Below, in pieces: positions 498 through 52,233 of a DNA stretch of 64,000 bases. Within the stretch, counting starts at the first letter, position 1. Each line of letters opens with the position of its first letter. Source of the stretch: Halichondria panicea (Eukaryota; Porifera; Demospongiae; Suberitida; Halichondriidae); assembly GCF_963675165.1 (NCBI RefSeq), contig NC_087382.1:5061963-5125962 (forward strand), written 5' to 3'. The translations under genes and the position numbers were made by a program. Under the pieces are notes generated by a model. That model saw only the letters and a list, made by a program, of their open reading frames with translations. It was not told the origin of the DNA and ran no database searches.

Positions 498-3400
498 TGC
501 TAACAGCTTGAGTGGTGGTGATGGTTGTAGGGGAGGGCATACAGTGCTGACCAGATGAGAGGCTGCAATCAGGGCCTAGTAGTTGAGTTACACGATGAGT
601 AGAGTTCCAACGTGACGTCAGCTCCGACAGGACCTTGACAGGACAGGCTAACCTCATCTCATCTACCAGTGTGCAGTGGTCCACACAAGAGGACAGGGGA
701 CTAGGAGAACCTGCATTGGGGGAGTACAGTTTAGTAGGGGACTAGGAAAGTGTGAGTAAGTCTGGGGGGGGGGAACTTTCGAAGCATGCATGAGCTCAGA
801 GCACCTCTCTATGGGCTCCCACCACAAAGACTTATAATAGCCAACCTCAAGTACAATTCAATATCAATATTAACAGACCTCCTTCCTTGCAGAATGGCAG
901 TGATCCATGACATATAAGGAGAGTGAGAGCATTTTGACAGGCAGGGCTCAGTCCATTTCCCCCTAGACTGTGATACAGGCCCACCATGCTCCCCTCTATA
1001 TCACCCAGTGATACACTACTCCAACCCTCACGATTCACGTACACACTTCTCTCTCTGTAGCCAGACAGTGAGGAGCAGAACTGACCACCATACATCTCAC
1101 AAGTATCTGCAAGGAATCAACATCCAGTAGCATCACCAATTAACACTGTACACAAGGATTATAGCCATGCGATCAACATTATAAAATGGGCCCGACCAAA
1201 ATAAATCTGTACACATATAAAAGCAAAGTGTCAGCCAGTACTATAACCTACATCAGTACATATAGGCAAACGAAGCTTGCAACCAGTACTGCCACTCACG
1301 ACAATGTGGAGGGTTGCAGTATTCCCACCGCCCACTGCCTCTAGCTGTGTAGCACCATGGTCGCTCCCCTAGTCCACCTGGGTTACGACAAGAGAAGCTA
1401 GCACCATACAGCTCCAGTTGGAAGTGAGCAGGGACAATAGAGTGGGTGTTGGGTGACTGTGAGTACCAGGACTGACAAGGTAACCCACTGATAGTGCGTG
1501 AGAGGTGACCAGCGTAACTTCTACCATTGCCTTTAACACACTCCAATTGTTCCACTACACCCTCACCAGGGCTATCTGTATATAACACATAGTTAATAGC
1601 TAGCCTATAATATAGACCCTATATGACTGCATGCTTCCTTACCTACTGCAGGACTGTCTAAGGACACATAGATACACTCTGGGCTCTCTCCTCCAGGGGT
1701 AGTGCGATTATCACAGCTAGCAAACAGAGCATCACGCAATGGAGAGAGTTGATAACGGTACTCCTCAAGGAAAGATGGGTCCAGAAAAAAGCTACAGAAT
1801 CCTTCAGCTCTGAGAATATCACAAGTGTGCTTGCAGAGAGGTCGTGGTACAGGATGACTATTGGTAGAGCTGGCGTCACAATACGGGTAAACACTGTTAC
1901 AAGCAATGCCTCGAATAAAGTCAGAGCATTGATCAATGGTTTCTTCAGTGATACCAGTGGCCATGTAGGTCAGGTTAGCATGGTGAGTGGCTGTGTAGGT
2001 ATTTATTAACCCAATCTGTTTACTTATGGTGCTTTCCAACACTTTTGTTTCATTATTGACGAGGACATTGGTATCCTCATGGATATAGTTACGACACGTA
2101 TGACTGTAGTAAGGTTGACAAGGACTGCATAAAGAATAAAAGTGCACAGTAAACCACTGTGTAGTAGACTGTGGTGAATGACAGATGAAGAGGTACCCAT
2201 GCAGGCACGGTGCAGCTCTAGCAATTATAGTCTTTGACTGAGCATTAATTACCTGCCCATGCATGCCCCGCCATGCACACGGTGTGTTATCAGCGGCTAA
2301 TTGCTTGAGCTGAACCGCGCCTGTAGGACCTCCTCGGCCTTTGTATTAGACTACTATACCCTACACTTGTACTGCTATATACTGCGCATGGCTTCTATAC
2401 CACAACTCACGATTGATTAGGGTTAGGTTCCAAGGACACTGGAGGGATAGATACAGTCATAACACATGCACACACACAATCATAGTATCTTACCTGCTAA
2501 CTTGATGGTGACCTTCTTGTTAACAGTGAGACGTCTTTTGAGGTGTGGAGGGTTCACATGAATATTGGAGGCAGAGCAGTAATAGTCCCCAACATCAGAC
2601 AATGACACAATTATTTGATATCCAGTTCCTGTGAGTGTACCCAACACACGGTCATCACGTATGAGGAGGACATAAGGGGGCGGGGCACCTCCAGCTGGAC
2701 ACTGTATAATGACAGTGTCCCGCTCACTCACTGTCAGTGTGATGTCATCACTTTCCAGGAAATAAGGTGATCCTGTGCATGTATATATATACATGCAGTC
2801 AATGCAGGAGGGCTTACTTATATAGACAACTTACTTTGTTCTCCAAAGTAGAAGATGGGAGAGGTGAACTGATTGTAGAAGTACAATTCTCTGAGATTTT
2901 TATCCGTGTACCTGTTCTGTATCTGGAAAATGTAGTAGAGGTCTCTCCTGACTGGTGGGGAGAGTGTATAGTGTGTTTCCCGTGGCTTGTTGGTGTTGAT
3001 GTAGAATGTTGGTGGAGCTGATATCACAGGACCATTGTCTACGTAATCATCAAGCTGCTCTTGTCCAAACATAAACACATATATAGAATATCTGCGAGAG
3101 CCATGACAATATTCAGTGTGGCTAGGACGAATAGTAGAGTCCCATTGTACAGTGACCATCTGGGTAGAGTTGATGGTTCCCACTCCAGCACTAATGTTGA
3201 CAGCATCAGGATTATAGCACGGTTCTTCATCTGTGACTGTGTAGGACAGATATACTAGCTGTTAGGAATGGATGGGCTGTGTATATATAGGACCATGCAA
3301 GAGTAGATAAGAGTGAGTGTTGAACTGCTACACTTAGTATGCCTATATACGCTATGCTCGGGACGCTATACAGCCTCGGGTCCTCCGGGTCCCATAATCC

Positions 3401-13384: not shown

Positions 13385-13655
13385 CCAATTGTGTCGATAC
13401 TTTACAGTGGTCTGGTCATACAAGGGTGCATGTCCAGTATAATGCTCTCTCCAACACGTGTCACTTTCAACATCATCCTGCATCAGTGTGTGCTATTTTC
13501 CGATTTACTACGAGGTATAGAAGTGGACGATGTCTTTACACAATCTCCGCTCATCACAGAGACCAATCAAATAGTGACAGAATTCACCTCTCTACTGGCA
13601 ACTCCCCTGGACAACCAACTCTTCCTGTTTGCTGGCACTAGCAGTGGAGGTGTGC
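13385..13655 (+). other. Coding-like open stretch, partly repeated at 22246
   Basis: Open for about 90 codons before a CA/TG tract (DLLRGIEVDDVFTQSPLITE, LLATPLDNQLFLFAG). The first 100 bp (CCAATTGTGTCGATACTTTA...) recur at 22246-22346, where they do not continue. No family recognised; it could be an exon or repeat-derived. Confidence 0.3.
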
Positions 13656-13657
13656 TT

Positions 13658-13712
<55 letters not shown>

Positions 13713-13772
13713 TGTGTGTGTGTGTGAGGGTGGTGTGTGTGTGTGTGAGAGGGTGGTGTGTGTGTGTGTGTC
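13658..13772. repeat. TG microsatellite
   Basis: (TG)n interrupted by AGGGTGG spacers; it generates spurious Cys-Val ORFs. A related TG/AGGGTGG tract is at 20490-20660. Confidence 0.95.
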
Positions 13773-14028
13773 ATTGCCAGCAATTGCCATTGTATTTTGG
13801 ACACTATTGTTCTAGCATCCTGTCTAAATATTTGTTCTATTTATATGAAAATTCAAATATTACTCAATCATTTTAACTACTGCAGAAATAAATGCTACTA
13901 TAGACTATTGTAGTGCGTGCGCAAGATCTTCGCTGAACTAGCTACGTTCACTGCACTGGTGCTGGTGAGTAATATTATTGTTTACCTGTTGGTTGAGCTC
14001 ATGTAGACTTCTGTGGTAGATTCTATCC

Positions 14029-14162
14029 TGTGGCAGATCTCTCTAGTCACTGTTACAGGCCGGTACAAGTAATAACAAAATACTGAGCATGCAGTACTGC
14101 CAGCTCAGTATTTTGTTATTACTTTTACCGGCCTGTAACAGTGACTAGAGAGATCTACCACA
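14029..14162. repeat. Large imperfect palindrome, MITE-like
   Basis: Left arm TGTGGCAGATCTCTCTAGTC...CAAAATACTGAGC pairs with right arm GCTCAGTATTTTG...GACTAGAGAGATCTACCACA around a loop of about 14 bp. The DNA or RNA could fold into a hairpin of roughly 58 bp. No target duplication identified. Confidence 0.7.
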
Positions 14163-14352
14163 GTAAATAATTATATAGAACAGTACAGTATAGTAGTCAG
14201 TTCTCAGTCATATTCTTCTCAGTCCTGTTCTAGTTACAACACTTTTACTAAATTAAATTTAACTTTCTTTCTTGGCTCTTTGTTGTCCGCTTCTTTTGTG
14301 CTTTCTTCTTTTGTTTTTTTGGCTCTAAATCCTAGCAACGTGTAGTCTGGAT

Positions 14353-14610
14353 TTAAAACTCTGACACCTGGACATCGTATGTTTGGCTGAGCCTCACAAC
14401 TTTCTTTAAATAGTTCTGGGCCTTTTTCTGAGACCCCATCGGAAAATAATGTGTTCCAGTATCATCTGCTGTTGTAAAATAAAATTGTTTTCCCTCAGTT
14501 CCCATCTTTACTAGCGACCCAATAGGAAAGGAGTTCCTGTGGTGCCTGATCTCTCGTAAGTCGGAGTCGATGTAGTACGGGTACGGGTGGAAGTGGCAGC
14601 AATTTCCCAT
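14353..14610 (-). CDS. Small hypothetical protein
   Basis: About 85 codons from an internal ATG at 14610 (MGNCCHFHPYPYY...), rich in aromatic and charged residues. The frame stays open upstream to 14760, but that part looks non-coding and would place the start only 15 bp from the divergent chromodomain gene. No family recognised. An upstream exon is possible, since AACAG precedes the ATG by about 12 bases. Confidence 0.3.
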   Translation of the reverse strand: MGNCCHFHPYPYYIDSDLREIRHHRNSFPIGSLVKMGTEGKQFYFTTADDTGTHYFPMGSQKKAQNYLKKVVRLSQTYDVQVSEF

Positions 14611-14775
14611 CTCAATTCTTTCTCTGTTCTTTTTTGTATAGTAATTTACTGATTCACATGACAGTAATAGCATGCAATCAATGGTAGTAAAGTGTGTCAA
14701 ATGAATAGAGATAAAATCTTTATGGTCACTAATTATTAATCTTCCAGCAGACCTGTTCATGCAGATCGACCTGTT

Positions 14776-15600
14776 ATGGACTCGTCAAAGAGGCAACGAC
14801 CTGAGAAAGGATACTATTCCTACCTCCATAATATAAGCTCGGCTGACATGGACTTATCTAGCATGCGGGAAGCACGAGATGTGAGAACCACTCTGAGCTG
14901 TAAGTCTGATGACAGTCTGCCAGAAGGGGTCTTCCTTGTTGAAAGGATAATTCATCATCGACTAACTAAGGTACGTAACATTTTATGATATATAGCCCTA
15001 TACGATTGATTCTATTTCTAGGGGAAAACGGAGTATTTGGTAAAGTGGGCTGGTTACTCATTGGAACAGTCTTCATGGGTCGCTAAGGAAGATGTGACTA
15101 TCTCTACTATCCAGTAAGATTATTAAGTATGGCATGGCAGTGCACTGTGTATTACTATAATTATATCTGCACATTTCCCCCCTTTCAGATCATACAATAC
15201 ACCACAAGCACCACATACCGAGCTTATAAGCGACGCAACAAGAAGATTTGTTCTGTCCATTCAATGTAGTTTAAATTTAGGTACTGTAAAATCCTGTAAT
15301 TTAACTATAGATTTCCGGCTAGATGTATTTCGTTACCTATTTAAAGATCGAGGAACCCAAATGACCCGCGGAAAGCTCCAACTTCAACAAACTGATTTTA
15401 ACGATGAATATTTTATAGGTAGTTGGTATATTTTGTATGATAGATATGGCAATGGCTGCACAGTAGATTTTCCTATTGTAGTATGTCCTAGAATTAAGTA
15501 TGGACCGAAAACATATAGAAATAGCAATGGTGAAATGTTAGAGTCACCTAGACTACTATCTGAAATTGTATGTGTAAATCTGGTGAAAAAACGTTGTTGA
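14776..15600 (+). CDS. Chromodomain protein (232 aa)
   Basis: Three exons: 14776-14970, 15022-15113 and 15189-15600, with GT-AG introns of 51 and 75 nt and matching phases. A chromodomain spans the first junction: FLVERIIHHRLTK then GKTEYLVKWAGYSLEQSSW, keeping the aromatic positions (F, W, Y) that form the methyl-lysine cage in HP1-type domains. About 140 further residues (LDVFRYLFKDRGTQ, DEYFIGSWYILYDRYGNG) match nothing I know. Likely a nuclear reader of histone or other methyl-lysine marks (inference). No integrase or reverse transcriptase adjoins it, so a retrotransposon chromodomain is less likely. Its 3' end faces the kinase gene across about 290 bp. Confidence 0.75.
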
Positions 15601-15888
15601 TCATTGTTAATTGTTAATTGTTAATGCATGCATGGCCCAACCTGAGCAGCCAATACGCACTATGTGACTCATAACTAACTGCTTCAGGCCAATTCTCTAC
15701 CATAATGCTTTTAATGACTCTCAAACAAATGGCTGGGTCAACACGCATCCCGACTTACAGCTAACCTTGTCAGCCTTCCATTAGAGAGCACGGATTTGCC
15801 TACAATTATACATAGACTATGTCATAGTTAAAGCTAGCACCAGATTTAAACATGAACGAATGAATGTAAGACATAATTAGTCACATAG

Positions 15889-17015
15889 TCATTCAACATT
15901 AAGAGAAATGGTTTCTAAGCTAGGACGGTCATGAGCATGATAAGAAAGACATTCCTTAATTACATGGGCAAGTTCAGTTGACTTAATTACAATGGAGTTC
16001 ATCTTCTTCATTATTCTACCTAATGAGTATATATCGCTCTGTGTGCTCTGTAAAACAAGCCCATCGCGGAGGTCTGGAGCTACTTGAGTGTGTTCTTTTA
16101 TGTAAATAACTTTCTGTTCCTCGGTCAGGCAGTACTTCTTAGCATGCTTTTCTTTACATGCCTTTCCAAAATCCACAATACATGGCCGGATACATTCTAA
16201 CAAAGTAGTCCCTAATACTACGTTGTCTACTTTAAGATCATTGTGAAGAATACTCAGCTTGTGCATGTATGATAGACCATCACAAATTTGGATCAGTATT
16301 TGCATCCATGTCTTAGGGCTTAATTTAATTTCGTTAGTCGAATACAAGGCAGAATATAATGAAACTTGTTGCTGCTTCACGCTTACATTAGACATTACTA
16401 AAGCTCTCCTGGTGGAACAAATACCAAAACAGTGTGGTATATAAGGGCTGGAATTTAATGTAAGTAATATACTGGCTTCATGCCTAATCGATTCGATTGA
16501 GGAGTCGGAAGTAAATGTTTTGACACAGACGTCAAAACACTCTTTAAAAATCATACGAGAGCATGTTCCAAACCGACCATTTCCTATATGAACATCACCA
16601 CCCCCATCTGCTAAACATTTCTCACTTATCTCTGGAACTACAGTAACTCCTCGCATAATATCAGCATTCGTACACATTCTTGGAGTTGCCTTGGGTAGAC
16701 TGATTACACTCGTCTTCATGGCTGCTGTTAGTAACTTTAGTGGTCGTTGGTGACTGCAGGATGTTCCCAGAGTTCCTGTCCGTAATTGCTTAGCTCGATA
16801 CACGTTGAGTTCCCTGTATGAACAATATTATTTACTGGCTGTTAATCAGCAACTTACAGTTTATAATCTATTGCCTTCTTCTTCCAATTCTGAACATTTT
16901 TCTCGGCACATTCAAGGCTCTTCTTCTCCATACACAGCTGCTTGCCAATTTTGTCAACTCTAGCTTTTCGATTGAGCCTCTTGAGCTTGGATCTTGAGAA
17001 TGTCTGGTCAGCCAT
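15889..17015 (-). CDS. Coiled-coil/kinase-domain protein (360 aa)
   Basis: Two exons, 17015-16858 and 16813-15889, joined by a 44-nt intron (phase 2). The N-terminus is Lys/Arg-rich and helical (KLKRLNRKARVDKIGKQLCM). The kinase domain follows: glycine loop IGNGRFGTC, VAIK-type CVKTF, catalytic loop LHNDLKVDNVVL, IVDFGKA, APD for APE, SDIYSLGRI and a closing HDRPS. The catalytic loop has HND where most kinases have HRD, so it is non-RD, but K, D and DFG are present and activity is plausible. No close subfamily recognised. It is divergently arranged with the RAG1-core-like gene, about 370 bp between starts. Confidence 0.8.
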
Positions 17016-17382
17016 TTTGTAATAAGTCTAAGAGAACCAGAGGTCGCAAAATACCCGCCATAATGCATCTGAGAAGTGTTATCATGCTATTGAATGAGTA
17101 CTGTGGTTAATTTAGTGGGTGATAACACCGCAGCCTATTCACCCACCCACTCATATTGACATGGCTAATTAATTTTGTTACATAACAGCTCAAGGGACCT
17201 TTTGTTCCATTATCCCGGGCCTCCTAGCTATGGCAGTAAACAAGCAGTCCAGAAGAGCAGAGAGCCTGTCCATCACCATCTCAAATTCAGCAAAGAAGTA
17301 CTCTGACTTCAGCCACACAGAACCATAAGTACAGCCAAACTTCTCTCTCTCTATTCCTATCGAGTTGCTGCATCATTGGTAC
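17016..17382. promoter_or_regulatory. Shared region between divergent kinase and RAG1-like genes
   Basis: Starts at 17015 (-) and 17383 (+) face away from each other. The region contains a 32-codon ORF starting ATGGCAGTAAACAAG near 17230 that ends in TAA before the main frame; it may be a 5' leader exon or uORF. Shared promoter activity is inferred from layout only. Confidence 0.35.
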
Positions 17383-19805
17383 ATGAACAAGAAGACAGAA
17401 GAGACATTCATTAGCTTAGTTAATAGCATGGTAACAATAGTTAAACTAGCACAAAGCGATCGTCTGGAGAAAAGGCTTGCAGAACAAGCTAGCAAGGTAG
17501 CAAGAAGGATACGGGGGCTAAAAGGAAGAAGGAGGTATGCCGTACTTGCTGGAGAATACAACCTCTTCGTGCTTGATGGAGAAGCAGAATCGTATTCTGA
17601 AATTGAGCAGCAACTATCCACTGAATCTCCACAGCCAACAACAATCCCCGAAACAAGTAGACCTACCACAGCACACATCAACAAAGGCAAAAAAGTTCAC
17701 GAGGTATCACCACGACAGGTAAAACGAAAGCTAGCACACTGTAAGAGCTCTGCAGAGCAAGCGCTTTGGTTTTGTGAATCATTCGGTCTTCAGCCAGAAT
17801 TTTTAGAGCTACGCAAACAGACAGGATCTCCCATCAAATTCAATTTTTTATCTAGCCCATCTCACAAGCCACAACATCAAACGCCAGCTCTTTCACCAAA
17901 CGATTCTGCGAGGGTACAGCAAGCTCTTTATGTACTTGACAGGTTTGCTGTGAGTGACGAAGCTTATCATGAATTGAGCGTCGCATCTGATTTACCACCA
18001 CTGTACCGAATCAAGGATGCTCGCCTCTCAATTAACAACTCTCTCGACATCCGACATCTCGAAGGTCCTTATCCTGGTGCTTATAGACCACCGAAAGCTG
18101 CAATCCAGGAAGAGCTAGCTAAGATCGTAAGTAAAGAAGAAATTATACATTATTATTATGGATTATTATTTTAGGTTCATTCAGGGAAAGCTATCACCCA
18201 ACCAGTAAAAGTAAAACTCAGTGGTGACGGAGCCAGATTCACAAGATCATCCAATATCATACTTCTCTCATTTGCATTTCCAGAAATTCAAGACAATGTT
18301 TTATCAGGCATGGGTAAGCTTAACAATAAAAATATTAAACGAGAAAGTGGTGAAAATATTTTTATATTGACATTCATACAGGCAATCATACATTTGCTGG
18401 CCTAAAAGCCGAAGAGTCGTATGAAACAATTAGTTCAGGACTATCTGAGGTATTGAAGGAGTTGAACGACATCATTTCACACCCACTACTCACTGTTGAT
18501 GAAACAGAGTACCGCCTTGAGTTTTTCCTGGGTAGTGATTACAAGGTGAGAATGTATAGTTAATTACTGACTATAAAAATTGCATTTAGTTTCTTTTACT
18601 GAGTATGGGCCTCAACAAAGCAACCTCTATGTACGCTTGTGTCTGGTGTACCATCAAGAAGGATGAAAGGTATATCTATAATTATTATGCTTAAACCTAG
18701 CTTCCCCATTTGCCGCTATAGGTGGGATATGTCAAAGGATAGGGCTGACTACACCATAACAAATGCAAGAACATTGAGTTCCCTACAAGCAAAAGGCGCA
18801 CTTCCCAGCAGTAAACCAGCAAGTGTACGACTAGGATCAATTACAACACCACTACTGAACATAGAGCCAGACCATATAATACCCGATGAGCTACACCTAC
18901 TCCTACGTATAGCTGACGTTTTAACAAGAAATCTCATTCTAGAGATAGTGGCATCTGCTAAACAAGACAGACAAGGAAACGCACATATACTCACTCACCT
19001 ACAAACACTACAGACGATCGTTAAAGACTGTGGTATCACGTTCAGGGTATGGGAAGCAAGGGGTCCAGATGGCAAAGCTTCTGGACATTACGAATGGACA
19101 TCACTGCAGGGGAACGACACCAAGAAGTTTCTGGAACGTCTCCCAGTGAGGTTTGCTGACCTACTGAAGGAAGAAATGCAAGCTAAAATGGCCCAACTTT
19201 GGACAGTGAGTACTAATTAAATTTCCCTTCGCATTTTACAAACATAATTATTTATATGGTCTGGCTCTATAGGAATTTCTCTCTTTGTATAAGATGGTTT
19301 CTAGCTGGACTCCACCTCCCAGTGAAGTGGTTGAGCAAAAGGTATAGTGTTAGTTTACTAGTAGGGAGAACCATTGTATCTAATTTACTATAATCTATCA
19401 TGATAGGCGAAAGACTGGATAAGGCTTTTCTTGAGCTTGAAGCACAAGTGTCAAGGGTTTCAGGAAAAGAATATTACGCCCTATATGCACACACTGGTCT
19501 TTCACTTCCCTTACTTTATTTCAAAATACGGAAATGTCAAGATGTTTAGTGGACAAGGTGAGTTCGAGTGTAAAGAGATAACATTTTAATCACCTTTTTC
19601 TCTAGGGGTGGAGAAAAATAATGATGACGCCAAGAGACACTACTTCTCCAGTAATCTGCATGACCCAGTGGGGGAGGTTCTGAAAGCTGAAGCGAGAATA
19701 GACGAGACATCACAATTTAAGCGAAAGAAACGAAAGTACATACGAAAAACTCCATTAGATTTAGTAGACATGAACAAACAGCCACGACTTGACTCTGAAT
19801 CATGA
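17383..19805 (+). CDS. RAG1/Transib-core-like DDE protein (676 aa)
   Basis: Eight exons with consistent phases: 17383-18126, 18175-18313, 18382-18545, 18590-18669, 18722-19205, 19273-19341, 19407-19557, 19606-19805. RAG1-like landmarks occur in order: KLSGDGARF (D600-like), LEFFLGSDYKFLLL (D708-like), YACVWC (C727/C730-like), PDELHLLL, YMHTLVFHFP (H937/H942-like) and FSGQGVEKNN (E962-like). Spacings second D to first Cys (19), Cys-x2-Cys, His-x4-His and second His to Glu (20) equal mouse RAG1 as I recall it; D-to-D is 81 versus 108. This predicts an RNase-H-fold DDE nuclease or transposase with a zinc site. No RING or zinc-binding N-terminus is seen; the N-terminal 240 residues are helical and charged. 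Seven introns and no obvious TIRs argue for a host gene. Start uncertain: the frame is open 18 bases further up without ATG. Confidence 0.8.
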
Positions 19806-22800
19806 TTAATTCTACCCAACATAATAATATAGTATACTATAATTATATCCTGATAGATTGTAGACATTTACTATCTTCAAGTAAATGACTGCTAGCCTAT
19901 ACTTACTTGCAGCCATATACACTCACTTTACATTGCTGGTACATTGCGATTAATGGGGAATTCCCCAAATTAGTGGCTCTACGCAGCTCTTGGGTATGTG
20001 TAGATAATGCGATACGTCATTGATAATTGTGGATTTTTTGACAAAACTGGACACATTTTGGAACCGCTTAGTCCACTTTATATCGAGCAGCAGCCGCTTT
20101 AAGCAGCAGAGTAGGCCGTATATTTTTGCTGGCAATCGGCAAAAATGAAAATATATGTGTAAGAATGCCGCAAATCAAACACAAAAATACAAAATAATCA
20201 AATTTTACAATACAATACACGAGACAAGCGCTGAAACATTGATCAACAAAAGCAGTTAGGGAACTTATACAAGCTGGCTGGCTAGCTTCTTGTGGGATTC
20301 CAAGGTTAGCTAAGGTGTATTTCTTCTTCTTTGTATCGGCAAATCAACTGAAAGTAGCTCCCTACAAGGGAAAAAGGGAAGCATAGCCTTTGGTCTCATA
20401 AGAACACATATAAAATCATACCGTAATATACAGAAAATTACTAACTGATTTACTGACATATTTTAATTGGTGTCCAGTCATTGCTGGCAATGTGTGTGTG
20501 TGTGTAAGATGGTGGTGTGCGTGTGTGAGGGTGGTGTGTGTGTGTAAGAGGGTGGTGTGTGTGTGTGTGAGAGGGTGGTGAGTGTGTGTTGTGTGTGTGT
20601 GTGTGTGTGTGTGAAAGAGGGTGGTGTGTGTGTGTAAGGGTAGTGTGTGTGTGTGAGCGGGTAATTTCTAGCTAATCTGATAGTTGGATGTTTTAATTAT
20701 GAGCTTATTTTATTGCCAAATGTGATTTTAATCCATTCATAGTGATCACTCGGCCTCACTGTAATGCTTGCGGTATATAGTTGTCGTGTGAAGTGATTGT
20801 GTATATCCTACACCGGCAATCAATTAGTCATTGCATTGTGCACATACTAGTCTGATGGTTGTAGGAGGTGTCATCATAATATAACCTGAAATCATTATAA
20901 CTGCTGTGACTATTTATAATAAGCATGGAATTTGCTTCCATTCCAACCCCATCCTGTACGCCTGTGTTACGTACCTGTATGACGAAATGGTACAGCTATG
21001 CCAGTGCAATAATAATTATTGTCGTAACCTTAATGCCACTCTAACTTGCCGTTTATAAACATCCTGCAAGGTACGCAAACAAACACTGCCTCTCAGAAAA
21101 AACTTTTGTCTAATGCTTTTTTTGAAGTGCCATTTGGCCCCTCTAGCTCTACTTGAGTGTATACCCATGAAATGAATGCTCTTGTGGCCCAAGTTGTGGG
21201 GTGTGTGTGTGTGGGCCCACGCTGCCTAACCCTGTAGAGTACTTGTGGTTTACCTGAGGAATGTGCTGTGGGGGGAAGTGTACATAAACAGGACTAGCTA
21301 GCTATTCCTGGGCTTCCCTCGCGCTACAAGAAATGTTGTGTTTATGGTAATGTCAATGGCCTGTTGTGCTACTTTTCAGAAATTCTCAACATCTATAATT
21401 GTTGCGTGTTGAAAGTTGTTTCGTTGTGTTTCACATACAGATAGAGAGGTGTACAGTTAAGCCAGTGTGTGTTTTGTATTTTGTATATTGGGATGCCTTC
21501 GTTATAATAGTATATGTATGGCTTTAATTAGAGCCCTACAAGTGTGCGGTAGATGCATAAGACAAGATAAAGTGTGGTCCCACGAGACATACTGAGAAGT
21601 GCACAGTGCTAATTTTAATTAGCTATAATTAGCCTGTAACCAAATATCCTAACCCACCCTCTGATTTACATTCTATGCTGGCTAACTCCAGCGTGACAGA
21701 CATGCCCTTAGAACTAGTCAAAACCCAAATACCAGTACATTTTTAGTTTGCATATTATACAGTACTGCATGCAATTAACATCGATGTGTGCCCACAGATG
21801 CTTTGAATTCTGCGCAGTCCCAGCCTAATTATTAGCAGATGTGCTTCTGTGCGGTGGATTCCACGGTAACCAGGAGGCTGTAGCACACTCACACACAGTG
21901 TCGCTGTGTTGACATTGTTGGGTGACAATATTGATTATGTCAAAGACATTTTTCTCGTGTGATACTAATTATTAATTAGTATTGTATTAGATTTGTTTCA
22001 GGCTGGTAACCGTCCCTTATTTCACATATAGCCCACCTTTCTGGATTATATAGACAGCTATTTTCTCTGACCTGCTATATATAGCTTTCATGATTGTGCT
22101 CAGTGTGTGCATGCTGTGTGTGGGCAGGAGGGTGTATACGGGCTGGCATGCGGTTACTTCTAATTATTAATTTCACAGTTTTTTTAGTGGCTAGACAAGC
22201 TGTTTGATTGTGAATGTGCGTTGAACTTGTGTGAATTTCTTATGGCGCTGTCCAATTGTGTCGATACTTTACAGTGGTCTGGTCATACAAGGGTGTGCAG
22301 TATAATGCTCTCTCCAACACGTGTCACTTCAACATCATCCTGCAATATGTTTTTTCACATCAATTCTTACAACAATAATTATAGTACCTTCAAAAAAGTA
22401 CGACCACCATTTTGAAAGAACTTTAGATGTGATGGGGAATTAGGCATATTTTTGCGAATGGCGTGGTTTCCTTCGATCTGGGCAGTTGGCGTCTCACAAC
22501 TATAATGTACACGTGAAAAGCAGTATGTACAATAATTATACATGTACAATGTACAATATATATTGAAACATAGCATCAAGTATGTACAGCATAATTATAG
22601 CTAAGTAACTAGCCTAGCTACGATACTCGAGGTGACTAGCTATATAGGATTGTCTCTTTGTTTGTTTTTTTGCAAAACGTATACTTGCAACGTGCAACGG
22701 TAAATTGCAACGCTTTTAATACAGTGTAAACGTACTGATGTACTACATAAACGGAACTTATACTTATATTGACTGCTTACTGCATCTATACAATAATAGT

Positions 22801-45132: not shown

Positions 45133-46640
45133 ATGTTCTCCTGGCTCTTAGGCAAGAAACAATGCGATGTGGCAGACGTCTACAACAACGTCATCGATGG
45201 CCTTAAGCAAATGTACCGAAAGAAGCTCCTCCCACTAGAGCAAACGTACCTTTTTGAAGATTTTCACTCACCATACATGAACGATGGGGACTTCAATGCC
45301 AAACCAATGGTCCTACTAATCGGTCAATATTCTACTGGAAAACTACTTTGATTCGTTACCTGCTAAAAAAGGATTTCCCTGGTATTAGGATTGGACCTGA
45401 ACCCACCACCGATCGCTTCATAGCCATCATGCATGGCCCTAATGAGCAACTCCTGGAAATGCTTTAGCTGTCGACCCAACACGACAGTTCGGTGCCTTGC
45501 AGTCGTTTGGAAACGCTTTCTTGAGCCGATTCGAGGCTTCGTTTTTGCCGAGTCCAGTTCTCGAGAGTATAACGCTCATCGACACTCCGGGAATATTATC
45601 AGGAGAGAAACAACGATTACATCGAGGGTACGATTTTGAGGGTGTGCTGGGCTGGTTTGCAGATCGGGCTGACATGATTATTCTCCTCTTTGATGCACAC
45701 AAGTTAGATATTTCGGACGAGTTTCGAACAGTCATCAATATCATCAAAATGAACCAAACCAAGATTCGTATTGTCCTCAATAAAGCGGATATGATCACAA
45801 CCCAGCAGCTGATGCGCGTGCACGGTGCTTTAATGTGGTCGCTGGGAAAGATATTGGATACTCCAGAAGTCACCAGAGTCTACATTGGCTCTTTCTGGGA
45901 CCAACCCCTTCATCATGATGAAAACCGGAAGCTTTTCGAGGACGAGCAACTAGACCTTTTTGCCGACATTCAGAGCCTGCCTCATACAAATGCTGTGCGG
46001 AAACTCAACGAAATGATCAAGCGAGCGCGACTGGCAAAGGTTCAAGCATTCGTTCTTTCTCATTTGAAAGGGGAAATGCCCTATCTGTTCGGAAAACAAT
46101 CCAAGAAAGATGCCCTTATTAAAAACCTCGGCCAAGTGTTCAACGCCATACACAAGTCTCGTAATATCCCTGTTGGGGATTTTCCCTCCGTGAAAGCCAT
46201 GAGAGAAAAACTTGGAAAATACGATTTCACTCGATTTCCGAAACTCCCAACCACATTTACTTGAAATTGTCGACCAAATGCTGGCAGTCGATATCTCCCA
46301 TATCATGAAGATGCTACCAAAAGAAGAAGACATGACTAAGGACAAAAGAATTCGTGGCGGTGTGTTTGGGCAAATTGACAATGATCCTTTCTCCACTAAG
46401 AGGGATGTCACGAAAGAAGATCCCGAGTGGCTCACCATCGTCTCTTGCTGGTAAAAAAAGGACACATGAAGAGACATCATCAGGTGAGTGCCAATAGTAA
46501 TAATAACAGTAATTGTATGATAATTATATAATTATCATGACTGTGTTAATTGTATCAAGAGTGCATAATACTCCTGGTTATATAACTCAATCTCACATTT
46601 CTTAGCTCCCAAAAAACCAAAGCCGTTCAAAAGACGCTAA
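45133..46640 (+). pseudogene. EHD-family ATPase gene with four frame shifts, no EH domain
   Basis: EHD proteins are dynamin-like ATPases that remodel endocytic membranes. Recognised blocks in order: LKQMYRKKLLPLEQTYLFED, P-loop GQYSTGK, IRIGPEPTTDRF, GNAFLSRFEASFLPSP, LIDTPGILSGEKQR, NKAD and helical-domain residues to about 46350. The frame changes near 45341, 45452, 46246 and 46428, and all four are single-base shifts; the first three lie at short A or C runs. After the last, the frame reads into a basic tail (SLAGKKRTHEETSS) and, via an intron (donor 46484), exon 46606-46640 (APKKPKPFKRR). No EH domain follows. Either a young pseudogene or homopolymer errors in the assembly. Confidence 0.8.
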
Positions 46641-50972: not shown

Positions 50973-52233
50973 ATGGCTACCGCTAACCAAGATCCCAGTG
51001 ATAAGTCAACACAATACAACACTTGCAAGGAGAAAGTGAAGACTTTTGTGGAAGAATGGAGTAATAACTTCAAGATGTGCTACTGTCCCTGTAAGATCAA
51101 TAAGTACGGGATGATGGACTCAGATGATACTGATAACGAGACACCGACGAGAGGTGACGATGAAGAAGACACACACAAGATGGAAGTGAGTAAAACAAGC
51201 TATATACTGTATCTATTATAAGCTACAATCATTGTACATTAACAACTGACATAATTATTTTAAGCAGCATACAGTTACACAAAGTAACCTTGAAGACAGC
51301 AGTACACACTCAGAAAGTGATGCTTCCATTACTCAAGACCCACCAGAGGAAGCCACCTTTGCTCCTACCGAACAACCTCCTTCACCTATTGAGGAACCAA
51401 AAGAAAGTGACCTTGAAGACAACAACACACACTCAGAAAGTGATGCTTCCATTACTCAAGACCCACCAGAGGAAGCCACCTTTGCTCCTGCCAAACAACC
51501 TCCTTCACCTATTGAGGAACCAAAAGAAAGTGACCTTGATGACAACAACACACACTCAGAAAGTGATGCTTCCATTACTCAAGACCCACCAGAGGAAGCC
51601 ACCTTTGCTCCTGCCAAACAACCTCCTTCACCTGTCGAGGAACCAAAAGGATTTTTTTCACAAACAGATCGGGTGTCATTCTCAGACCTTGCCCCACAAA
51701 CCACCTCTGGATTCGTGACAACAACACCTGGCTTTCAGTTTCAAGGAGCTGGAAAACAGCTGTTTGCTGTACGAAGTGCGGATTATGGTGAAACCAATCC
51801 TGAAGAAGAAATTGACATCAATTTCAAGCCTCTGGTCTCTCCCCCTAAAGTGGCTCCAACCAAGTCCTGGGATGATGAGGCTGGTACTTTGTTTACAAAT
51901 CGTGGGAAGTTGTTCCGATTCGATGACTCTATCAACCAGTGGAAGGAAAGGGGAGTGGGTGATATCAAGATTCTGCAGCATGCTGAAACAGGTCGTTGTC
52001 GTATTTTGATGAGAAGAGATCAGATATTGAAGATTTGTTGCAATCATAACATCACTGCTGAGATGACACTGTTGCCGGGAAACACTGACAAGTCGTGGGT
52101 ATGGTTTACGCAATCAGATTTCACCGATGAAGAGCCTAAGAAAGAGAAGTTAGCTGTTCGATTCAAGCATGTCGAAACAGCTAGAGAGTTTAAAGAAGTA
52201 TTTGAACAATGTGTTAAGAGAGATACTGAATAA
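50973..52233 (+). CDS. Ran-binding-domain protein with acidic repeats (392 aa)
   Basis: Two exons: 50973-51185 and about 51268-52233 (phase 0). The C-terminal ~120 residues form a RanBD: LFRFDDSINQWKERGVGDIK, RCRILMRRDQILKICCNH, DKSWVWFTQSDFTDE and LAVRFKHVETAREFKE, as in RanBP1/RanBP2. It should bind Ran-GTP and assist nuclear transport. The middle holds three exact-length 41-residue repeats (SESDASITQDPPEEATFAP), encoded by 123-bp DNA repeats. A short TTTPGFQF before the RanBD recalls FG-type linkers in RanBP2. Too short for RanBP2; a RanBP1- or RanBP3-like role is possible. No frame breaks, unlike several neighbours. Confidence 0.88.
51286..51650. repeat. 123-bp coding tandem repeat, three units
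   Basis: Units start about 51286, 51409 and 51532 (TGCTTCCATTACTC at 51321, 51444 and 51567). They are nearly identical, so expansion is recent or homogenised. In the +1 frame they give a false Lys/Leu-rich ORF. Confidence 0.95.

Follow-up and report, generated by a model that had tools for sequence, protein, structure and literature searches.

RAG1 is the cutter behind vertebrate antibody diversity, and RAG1-type enzymes are regarded as transposases that work with a 5-bp stagger. The RAGL and Transib transposons are reported to have terminal inverted repeats (TIRs) that start with CAC and 5-bp target duplications, both are known from cnidarians, and RAGL carries a kelch-PHD RAG2L gene (PMC7204232). 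The CMCT clade (EnSpm/CACTA, Mirage, Chapaev, Plavaka, ESTA and Lanisha) is reported to make duplications of 2-5 bp (PMC12730594), and Spy, which belongs to the PHIS group with PIF/Harbinger and ISL2EU, is a DDE element with TIRs, an AAATTT target and no duplication (PMC4482050). We analyzed a 64,000-nucleotide stretch of the genome of the demosponge Halichondria panicea (NC_087382.1, 5,061,963 to 5,125,962; hereafter the window), which contains a gene with a RAG1-like catalytic core. The results indicated that this locus is a copy of a young DNA transposon that has three genes, among them a RAG1/Transib-core transposase, representing a distinct RAG1-type lineage with zero-stagger insertion; we place the probability of this reading at roughly 0.83.

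The predicted element, its ends and the transposase gene occupy the following window positions:

13772..20492, plus strand: whole transposon, 6,721 bp; homology to other copies breaks off sharply at both edges
13772..13784, plus strand: left TIR CATTGCCAGCAAT, 13 bp, near-palindromic
20480..20492, minus strand: right TIR, the perfect complement of the left repeat
17383..19805, plus strand: RAG1-type transposase gene; exons 17383-18126, 18175-18313, 18382-18545, 18590-18669, 18722-19205, 19273-19341, 19407-19557 and 19606-19805
17230..17382, plus strand: N-terminal extension of exon 1, which starts at 17230 in intact copies; one in-frame stop in the window copy

A preliminary description of the locus, made from the window alone, had proposed a gene of eight exons and seven introns. 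This model was borne out: the seven GT-AG introns measure 44-68 nt, the exons join in frame to give 676 residues from the ATG at 17383, and the splice dinucleotides of the same introns are intact in all 18 copies examined. The full frame of 727 residues from the ATG at 17230 is open in 15 of these 18 copies, namely in every two-ended copy but that of the window, which has one stop near the N terminus; the remaining two (L020 and L026) have frame breaks. The closest named protein is LOC135350804 of Halichondria panicea, which by eye shows few differences from the intact copies.

The predicted sponge transposase carries three acidic residues and a set of zinc ligands in the order found in RAG1 (D266, D347, C366-x2-C369, H588-x4-H593 and E613), as the preliminary description had read them. 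Its claim on spacing was equally correct; the distances from the second aspartate to the first cysteine (19) and from the second histidine to the glutamate (20) equal D708-C727 and H942-E962 of mouse RAG1, in which D600, D708, C727, H937 and E962 were located with a numbering confirmed on the PDB chain. In an alignment of 67 of the 136 homologues, chosen by eye for length, and counting the rows that reach each column, the first aspartate was conserved in 67/67, the second in 65/67, both cysteines in 66/66, the histidines in 61/61 and 59/60, and the glutamate in 55/55; another family alignment comprised 28 of 39 proteins. The motif PDELHLLL, said to lie where RAG1 has a similar helix, was placed accordingly by hhalign, which sets DELHL on the RAG1 residues IDALHC.

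When the family profile was compared with PDB sequences, the amphioxus RAG1-like chain ranked first, with whole-sequence E values of 1.1e-4 for this chain (BbRAG1L) and 1.2e-4 for zebrafish RAG1. Two profile searches returned 75 and 82 sequences at E<=10; among the 60 matches listed for each there was no Transib chain, and 16 of the 60 listed from the larger search were RAG1 or RAG1L. The structural model of a coral homologue (P0015) revealed an RNase H fold that matched RAG1 at about 15% identity. The best structural alignment begins at RAG1 residue 459, which we take to lie after the nonamer-binding domain; for such a domain, the comparison barely covered the model residues before 285. A clearly better match to hAT, which the preliminary description had named as grounds for abandoning RAG1, did not emerge: the comparison went the opposite way, with neither a hAT protein as the closest structural match nor an 8-bp duplication. 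Taken together, the profile search, the profile-sequence alignment with shuffle controls and the structure comparison support a predicted RAG1/Transib-type core, with an RNase H fold, a D-D-E triad and a C2/H2 zinc-ligand insertion.

The genome searched comprised 131 Mb in 39 contigs. A whole-genome pattern search revealed 35 transposon ends, compared with 1 and 0 for control patterns, and these paired into 16 two-ended elements and three single ends. The preliminary description had seen no obvious TIRs, but there is a perfect 13-bp pair, one repeat 3.6 kb before and the other 0.7 kb after 17383..19805. All 16 two-ended copies share the terminal sequence CATTGCC...GGCAATG rather than the CACAGTG-like ends that the preliminary description had suggested looking for, and 12 of 14 positions within each end are self-complementary, making the ends near-palindromic. 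By end coordinates, 14 of the 16 are 6.71-6.73 kb long, and the other two owe their greater length to different nested insertions. Mean pairwise divergence among the 16, over the transposase gene including introns, is 0.11%; this mean excludes L020 and L026, which are more diverged and not two-ended. The suggested paralogue search thus yielded many near-identical copies.

Within the nested insert of the C17 copy (G000:C17:2200400-2211399), we observed open reading frames (ORFs) that by eye resemble a DIRS-type reverse transcriptase with tyrosine recombinase and a RecQ-like helicase. The insert of the C12 copy (G000:C12:4257300-4269299) contains one ORF pair twice, in the same orientation and about 5.4 kb apart; by eye it encodes a piggyBac-type transposase, and both translations look identical.

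The junctions revealed how the element inserts. The window copy is inserted in a (TG)n repeat, where neither duplication nor target can be scored, and was left out of both counts. At the other 15 insertions, the number of exactly shared flanking letters was 0 in 11, 1 in three and 3 in one, so that the 5-bp duplications sought on the advice of the preliminary description are not there, nor is any other fixed length. Upon searching the genome with the joined flanks, we found a paralogous empty site across the junction for 9 of the 15 insertions; the other six gave none among the 40 scored of 3745 candidates. At eight of the nine, the junction is without gap, and two of these match at 160/160 positions. 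Insertion at these sites therefore adds the element and nothing else. At one insertion, a local tandem repeat offers a second unit that shows the same empty site.

The target itself is marked on one side only. The position four nucleotides outside the left end (-4) is a purine at all 15 sites (G in 11 and A in four), with an information content of 1.22 bits, whereas the other 119 target positions reach at most 0.59 bits. A value of 1.22 bits was attained by about 1 in 200,000 simulated columns, or 1e-4 over 20 positions. On the right side, position +4 has C in five, G in four, A in three and T in three sites, and since the preference is not mirrored there, insertion appears to be oriented relative to the target. 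The word AAATTT was absent at all 16 junctions.

Two further predicted genes lie between the left end and the transposase gene:

14776..15600, plus strand: chromodomain protein gene, 232 aa; exons 14776-14970, 15022-15113 and 15189-15600
15889..17015, minus strand: protein kinase gene, 360 aa; exons 17015-16858 and 16813-15889

The first product matches Pfam Chromo (E=2e-12) over residues 54-99, and its C-terminal part is without Pfam assignment; no homologue was found at E<=1e-3 among 61 candidates. The second matches Pfam Pkinase (E=8e-22) and has Lys151, HND at 243 and DFG at 267. Both genes were found at matching places in other copies. A strongly diverged relative (L086 on C13, 26-74% identical depending on the stretch) contains a chromodomain gene, an opposite-strand kinase and a transposase in the same order as the element, and a closer one (L087 on C3) retains pieces of all three. 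In both, the transposase match ends before the HxxxxH/E region, and among the 25 listed of 36 inverted pairs none was convincing as the TIRs of L086. The conservation of gene order at this divergence suggests that the element benefits from both additional genes, and the presence of such incomplete relatives, one of them strongly diverged, suggests that this transposon group has long been present in the sponge lineage. Relatives were not confirmed in viral contigs (0 of 38 pattern stretches) or in prokaryote genome contigs (0 of 73).

Compared with the described systems, the element combines familiar and unfamiliar features. Whereas RAGL/ProtoRAG transposons have 5-bp duplications, RSS-heptamer-like CAC ends and a convergent kelch-PHD RAG2L gene, the sponge element has no duplication, CATTGCC ends, and a chromodomain protein and a kinase as its recognized companions. 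It differs from Transib, with its 5-bp duplication, in its 0-bp duplication and its three genes. Despite the RAG1-type fold and active site, it is neither a RAGL nor a Transib transposon by the features compared. With the CMCT clade, compared here through its published description (PMC12730594), it shares C(2)C and, within the H(3-4)H of the clade, H(4)H between the second aspartate and the glutamate as well as CA..TG termini, but not the 2-5 bp duplications. Like Spy, it is a DDE element that has TIRs and leaves no target duplication; unlike Spy, it has no AAATTT target and has a RAG1-type core. The element may deserve a superfamily of its own. We found no description of it in the accessible portions of the open literature searched (PMC10045372, PMC12730594, PMC7204232, PMC4411706 and PMC4482050), Repbase and subscription papers lying outside this search. 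Because RAGL and Transib are already recorded from cnidarians (PMC7204232), the early presence of the fold is not new; the new points are the lineage, the gene set and the insertion mode.

Several observations weigh against our reading. Regarding the core, the two matched BbRAG1L stretches individually have E values of only 1.4 and 0.51, a single-sequence search gave E=1.1, and the hhalign probability is 21% (E=0.001, with one sequence as template). The first aspartate falls outside the hhalign match, and the superposition of catalytic residues rests on sequence alignment, not on coordinates. Many coiled-coil proteins were also matched, through the N-terminal coiled coil, and the structure compared was that of the coral homologue and not of the sponge protein. 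We take Pfam to hold RAG1, EnSpm and KDZ models; one Pfam scan, and the 25 families listed of 105 in another, contained no RAG1 match. A search of the sponge genome with the Pfam RAG1 model gave 0 matches but is uninformative, the control having responded in 0 of 14 genomes. The precomputed Pfam label PF28422.1 is carried by two (P0052 and P0089) of the 120 relatives listed, was not reported by a Pfam scan of these two, and may be an existing name for part of the transposase. Regarding insertion, zero duplication was seen in one family of one genome, and the ninth empty site (C6:127383) is off by one A, with both empty copies about 91% identical to the joined flanks. Additionally, a complete second kinase exon occurs in only 12 of 19 loci, fewer than for the transposase, so single copies may manage without the kinase or obtain it in trans.

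Other explanations of the locus were weighed against the same data. The preliminary description had favored a domesticated single-copy host gene over an active transposon, an interpretation that accords with the seven introns and with the interrupted N-terminal frame of the window copy. The sequence data contradict it: the 16 near-identical two-ended copies with different flanks, the TIRs and the exact empty sites rule it out, and the presence of the same introns in 18/18 copies also speaks against it, so that we give it virtually no credence. An outlying and poorly annotated member of a known CMCT superfamily (Chapaev, EnSpm or Transib), which moves by the ordinary mechanism and lacks the duplication as a family oddity, is unlikely but deserves more attention. 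The 2-5 bp duplications reported for that clade (PMC12730594) stand against 0 bp at eight of nine empty sites, and the 25 Pfam families listed of 105 include no EnSpm or KDZ match, just as they lack RAG1. A second look at the Foldseek top 1000 against the PDB, of which 50 matches were listed, revealed no KDZ, EnSpm or Chapaev chain among those 50, a result that excludes none of these families.

The absence of a fixed duplication could also arise if the end-joining repair of the host sealed blunt excised ends into chance double-strand breaks, and RAG-type excision does leave blunt signal ends. End joining, however, usually trims or adds bases, whereas eight of nine junction pairs have neither lost nor gained one, and the strong one-sided preference at -4 points to a chosen target; we therefore consider capture improbable. 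Even less probable, in our estimation, is a single-strand mechanism of the Helitron or IS200/605 kind with the RAG-like gene as an auxiliary. Such systems have palindromic ends, leave no duplication and choose their target directionally, traits that the near-palindromic ends (12/14), the missing duplication and the one-sided preference of the sponge element recall. In opposition to this, Pfam detected neither an HUH nor a tyrosine nuclease in the two companion proteins, although the C-terminal part of the chromodomain protein is unassigned; the two ends are perfect 13-bp inverted repeats of each other; and the catalytic residues are kept in the transposase.

On the reading of zero-stagger transposition by a RAG1-type enzyme, the following course suggests itself. 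As far as the sequences allow us to infer, the RAG-like protein moves the element: it would pair the two ends, excise the element by the nick-and-hairpin chemistry of RAG and Transib, and join both 3' OH ends to phosphates lying directly opposite each other. With opposed phosphates joined there would be no gap to fill and hence no duplication. The preference on one side of the target also suggests that the complex holds the left and right ends in non-equivalent ways. The chromodomain protein could act as a reader of methylated histones that guides or restrains insertion, in the manner of the RAG2 PHD finger to which it is unrelated, and the kinase might modify the transposase or the host repair response.

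A broader proposal, which we offer tentatively and at slightly less than even odds, is that the element belongs to an undescribed RAG1-type superfamily of sponges and cnidarians with blunt insertion, an orientation fixed to the target purine, and a chromodomain protein as an independent counterpart of the RAG2 histone reader. A young, largely intact relative with zero stagger points to a target stagger that is changeable within this fold; the element would be a natural system for asking which parts of the complex set the stagger, and it bears on the loss of productive transposition by RAG. If true, the association of a second, unrelated histone reader with a RAG1-type enzyme would cast the RAG2 PHD partnership as a solution that has arisen more than once. 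A weaker lead within this proposal is that the ends are possibly bipartite: the inner element would sit 3 nt in on one side and 13 nt in, a helical turn deeper, on the other, reminiscent of the asymmetric 12/23 spacing in V(D)J signals. The candidate inner elements are as follows:

13798..13804, plus strand: TGGACAC, subterminal, weak lead; 13 nt inside the left TIR
20470..20476, minus strand: TGGACAC, subterminal, weak lead; 3 nt inside the right TIR, a spacing 10 nt off that of the left end

Because a word as long as TGGACAC was common to both ends in 59 of 2000 shuffles, we treat this pair as a lead only.

One further feature was observed inside the element:

14020..14171, no strand assigned: inverted repeat of two adjoining 76-nt arms, 91% complementary, between the left end and the chromodomain gene

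In at least one other copy (L042), the match runs through this hairpin without a break. The hairpin may represent a small nested element or give rise to double-stranded RNA.

In the surroundings of the element (window positions 13426-13668 and from 20493 on), the (TG)n repeat in which it sits directly follows a plus-strand stretch that is open (...LLATPLDNQLFLFAGTSSGGVLQ). By eye, the LLATPLDNQLFLFAGTSSGGVLQ stretch resembles a semaphorin/plexin-type domain, so the element may have landed in an intron of a gene of this type. Nearby host exons encode an Fz-like domain below the cut-off (1608-2345, minus strand), a Dynamin_N/DUF5600 protein, presumably an EHD-type GTPase (45446-46261, plus strand), and a RanBP1 domain (51250-52230, plus strand).
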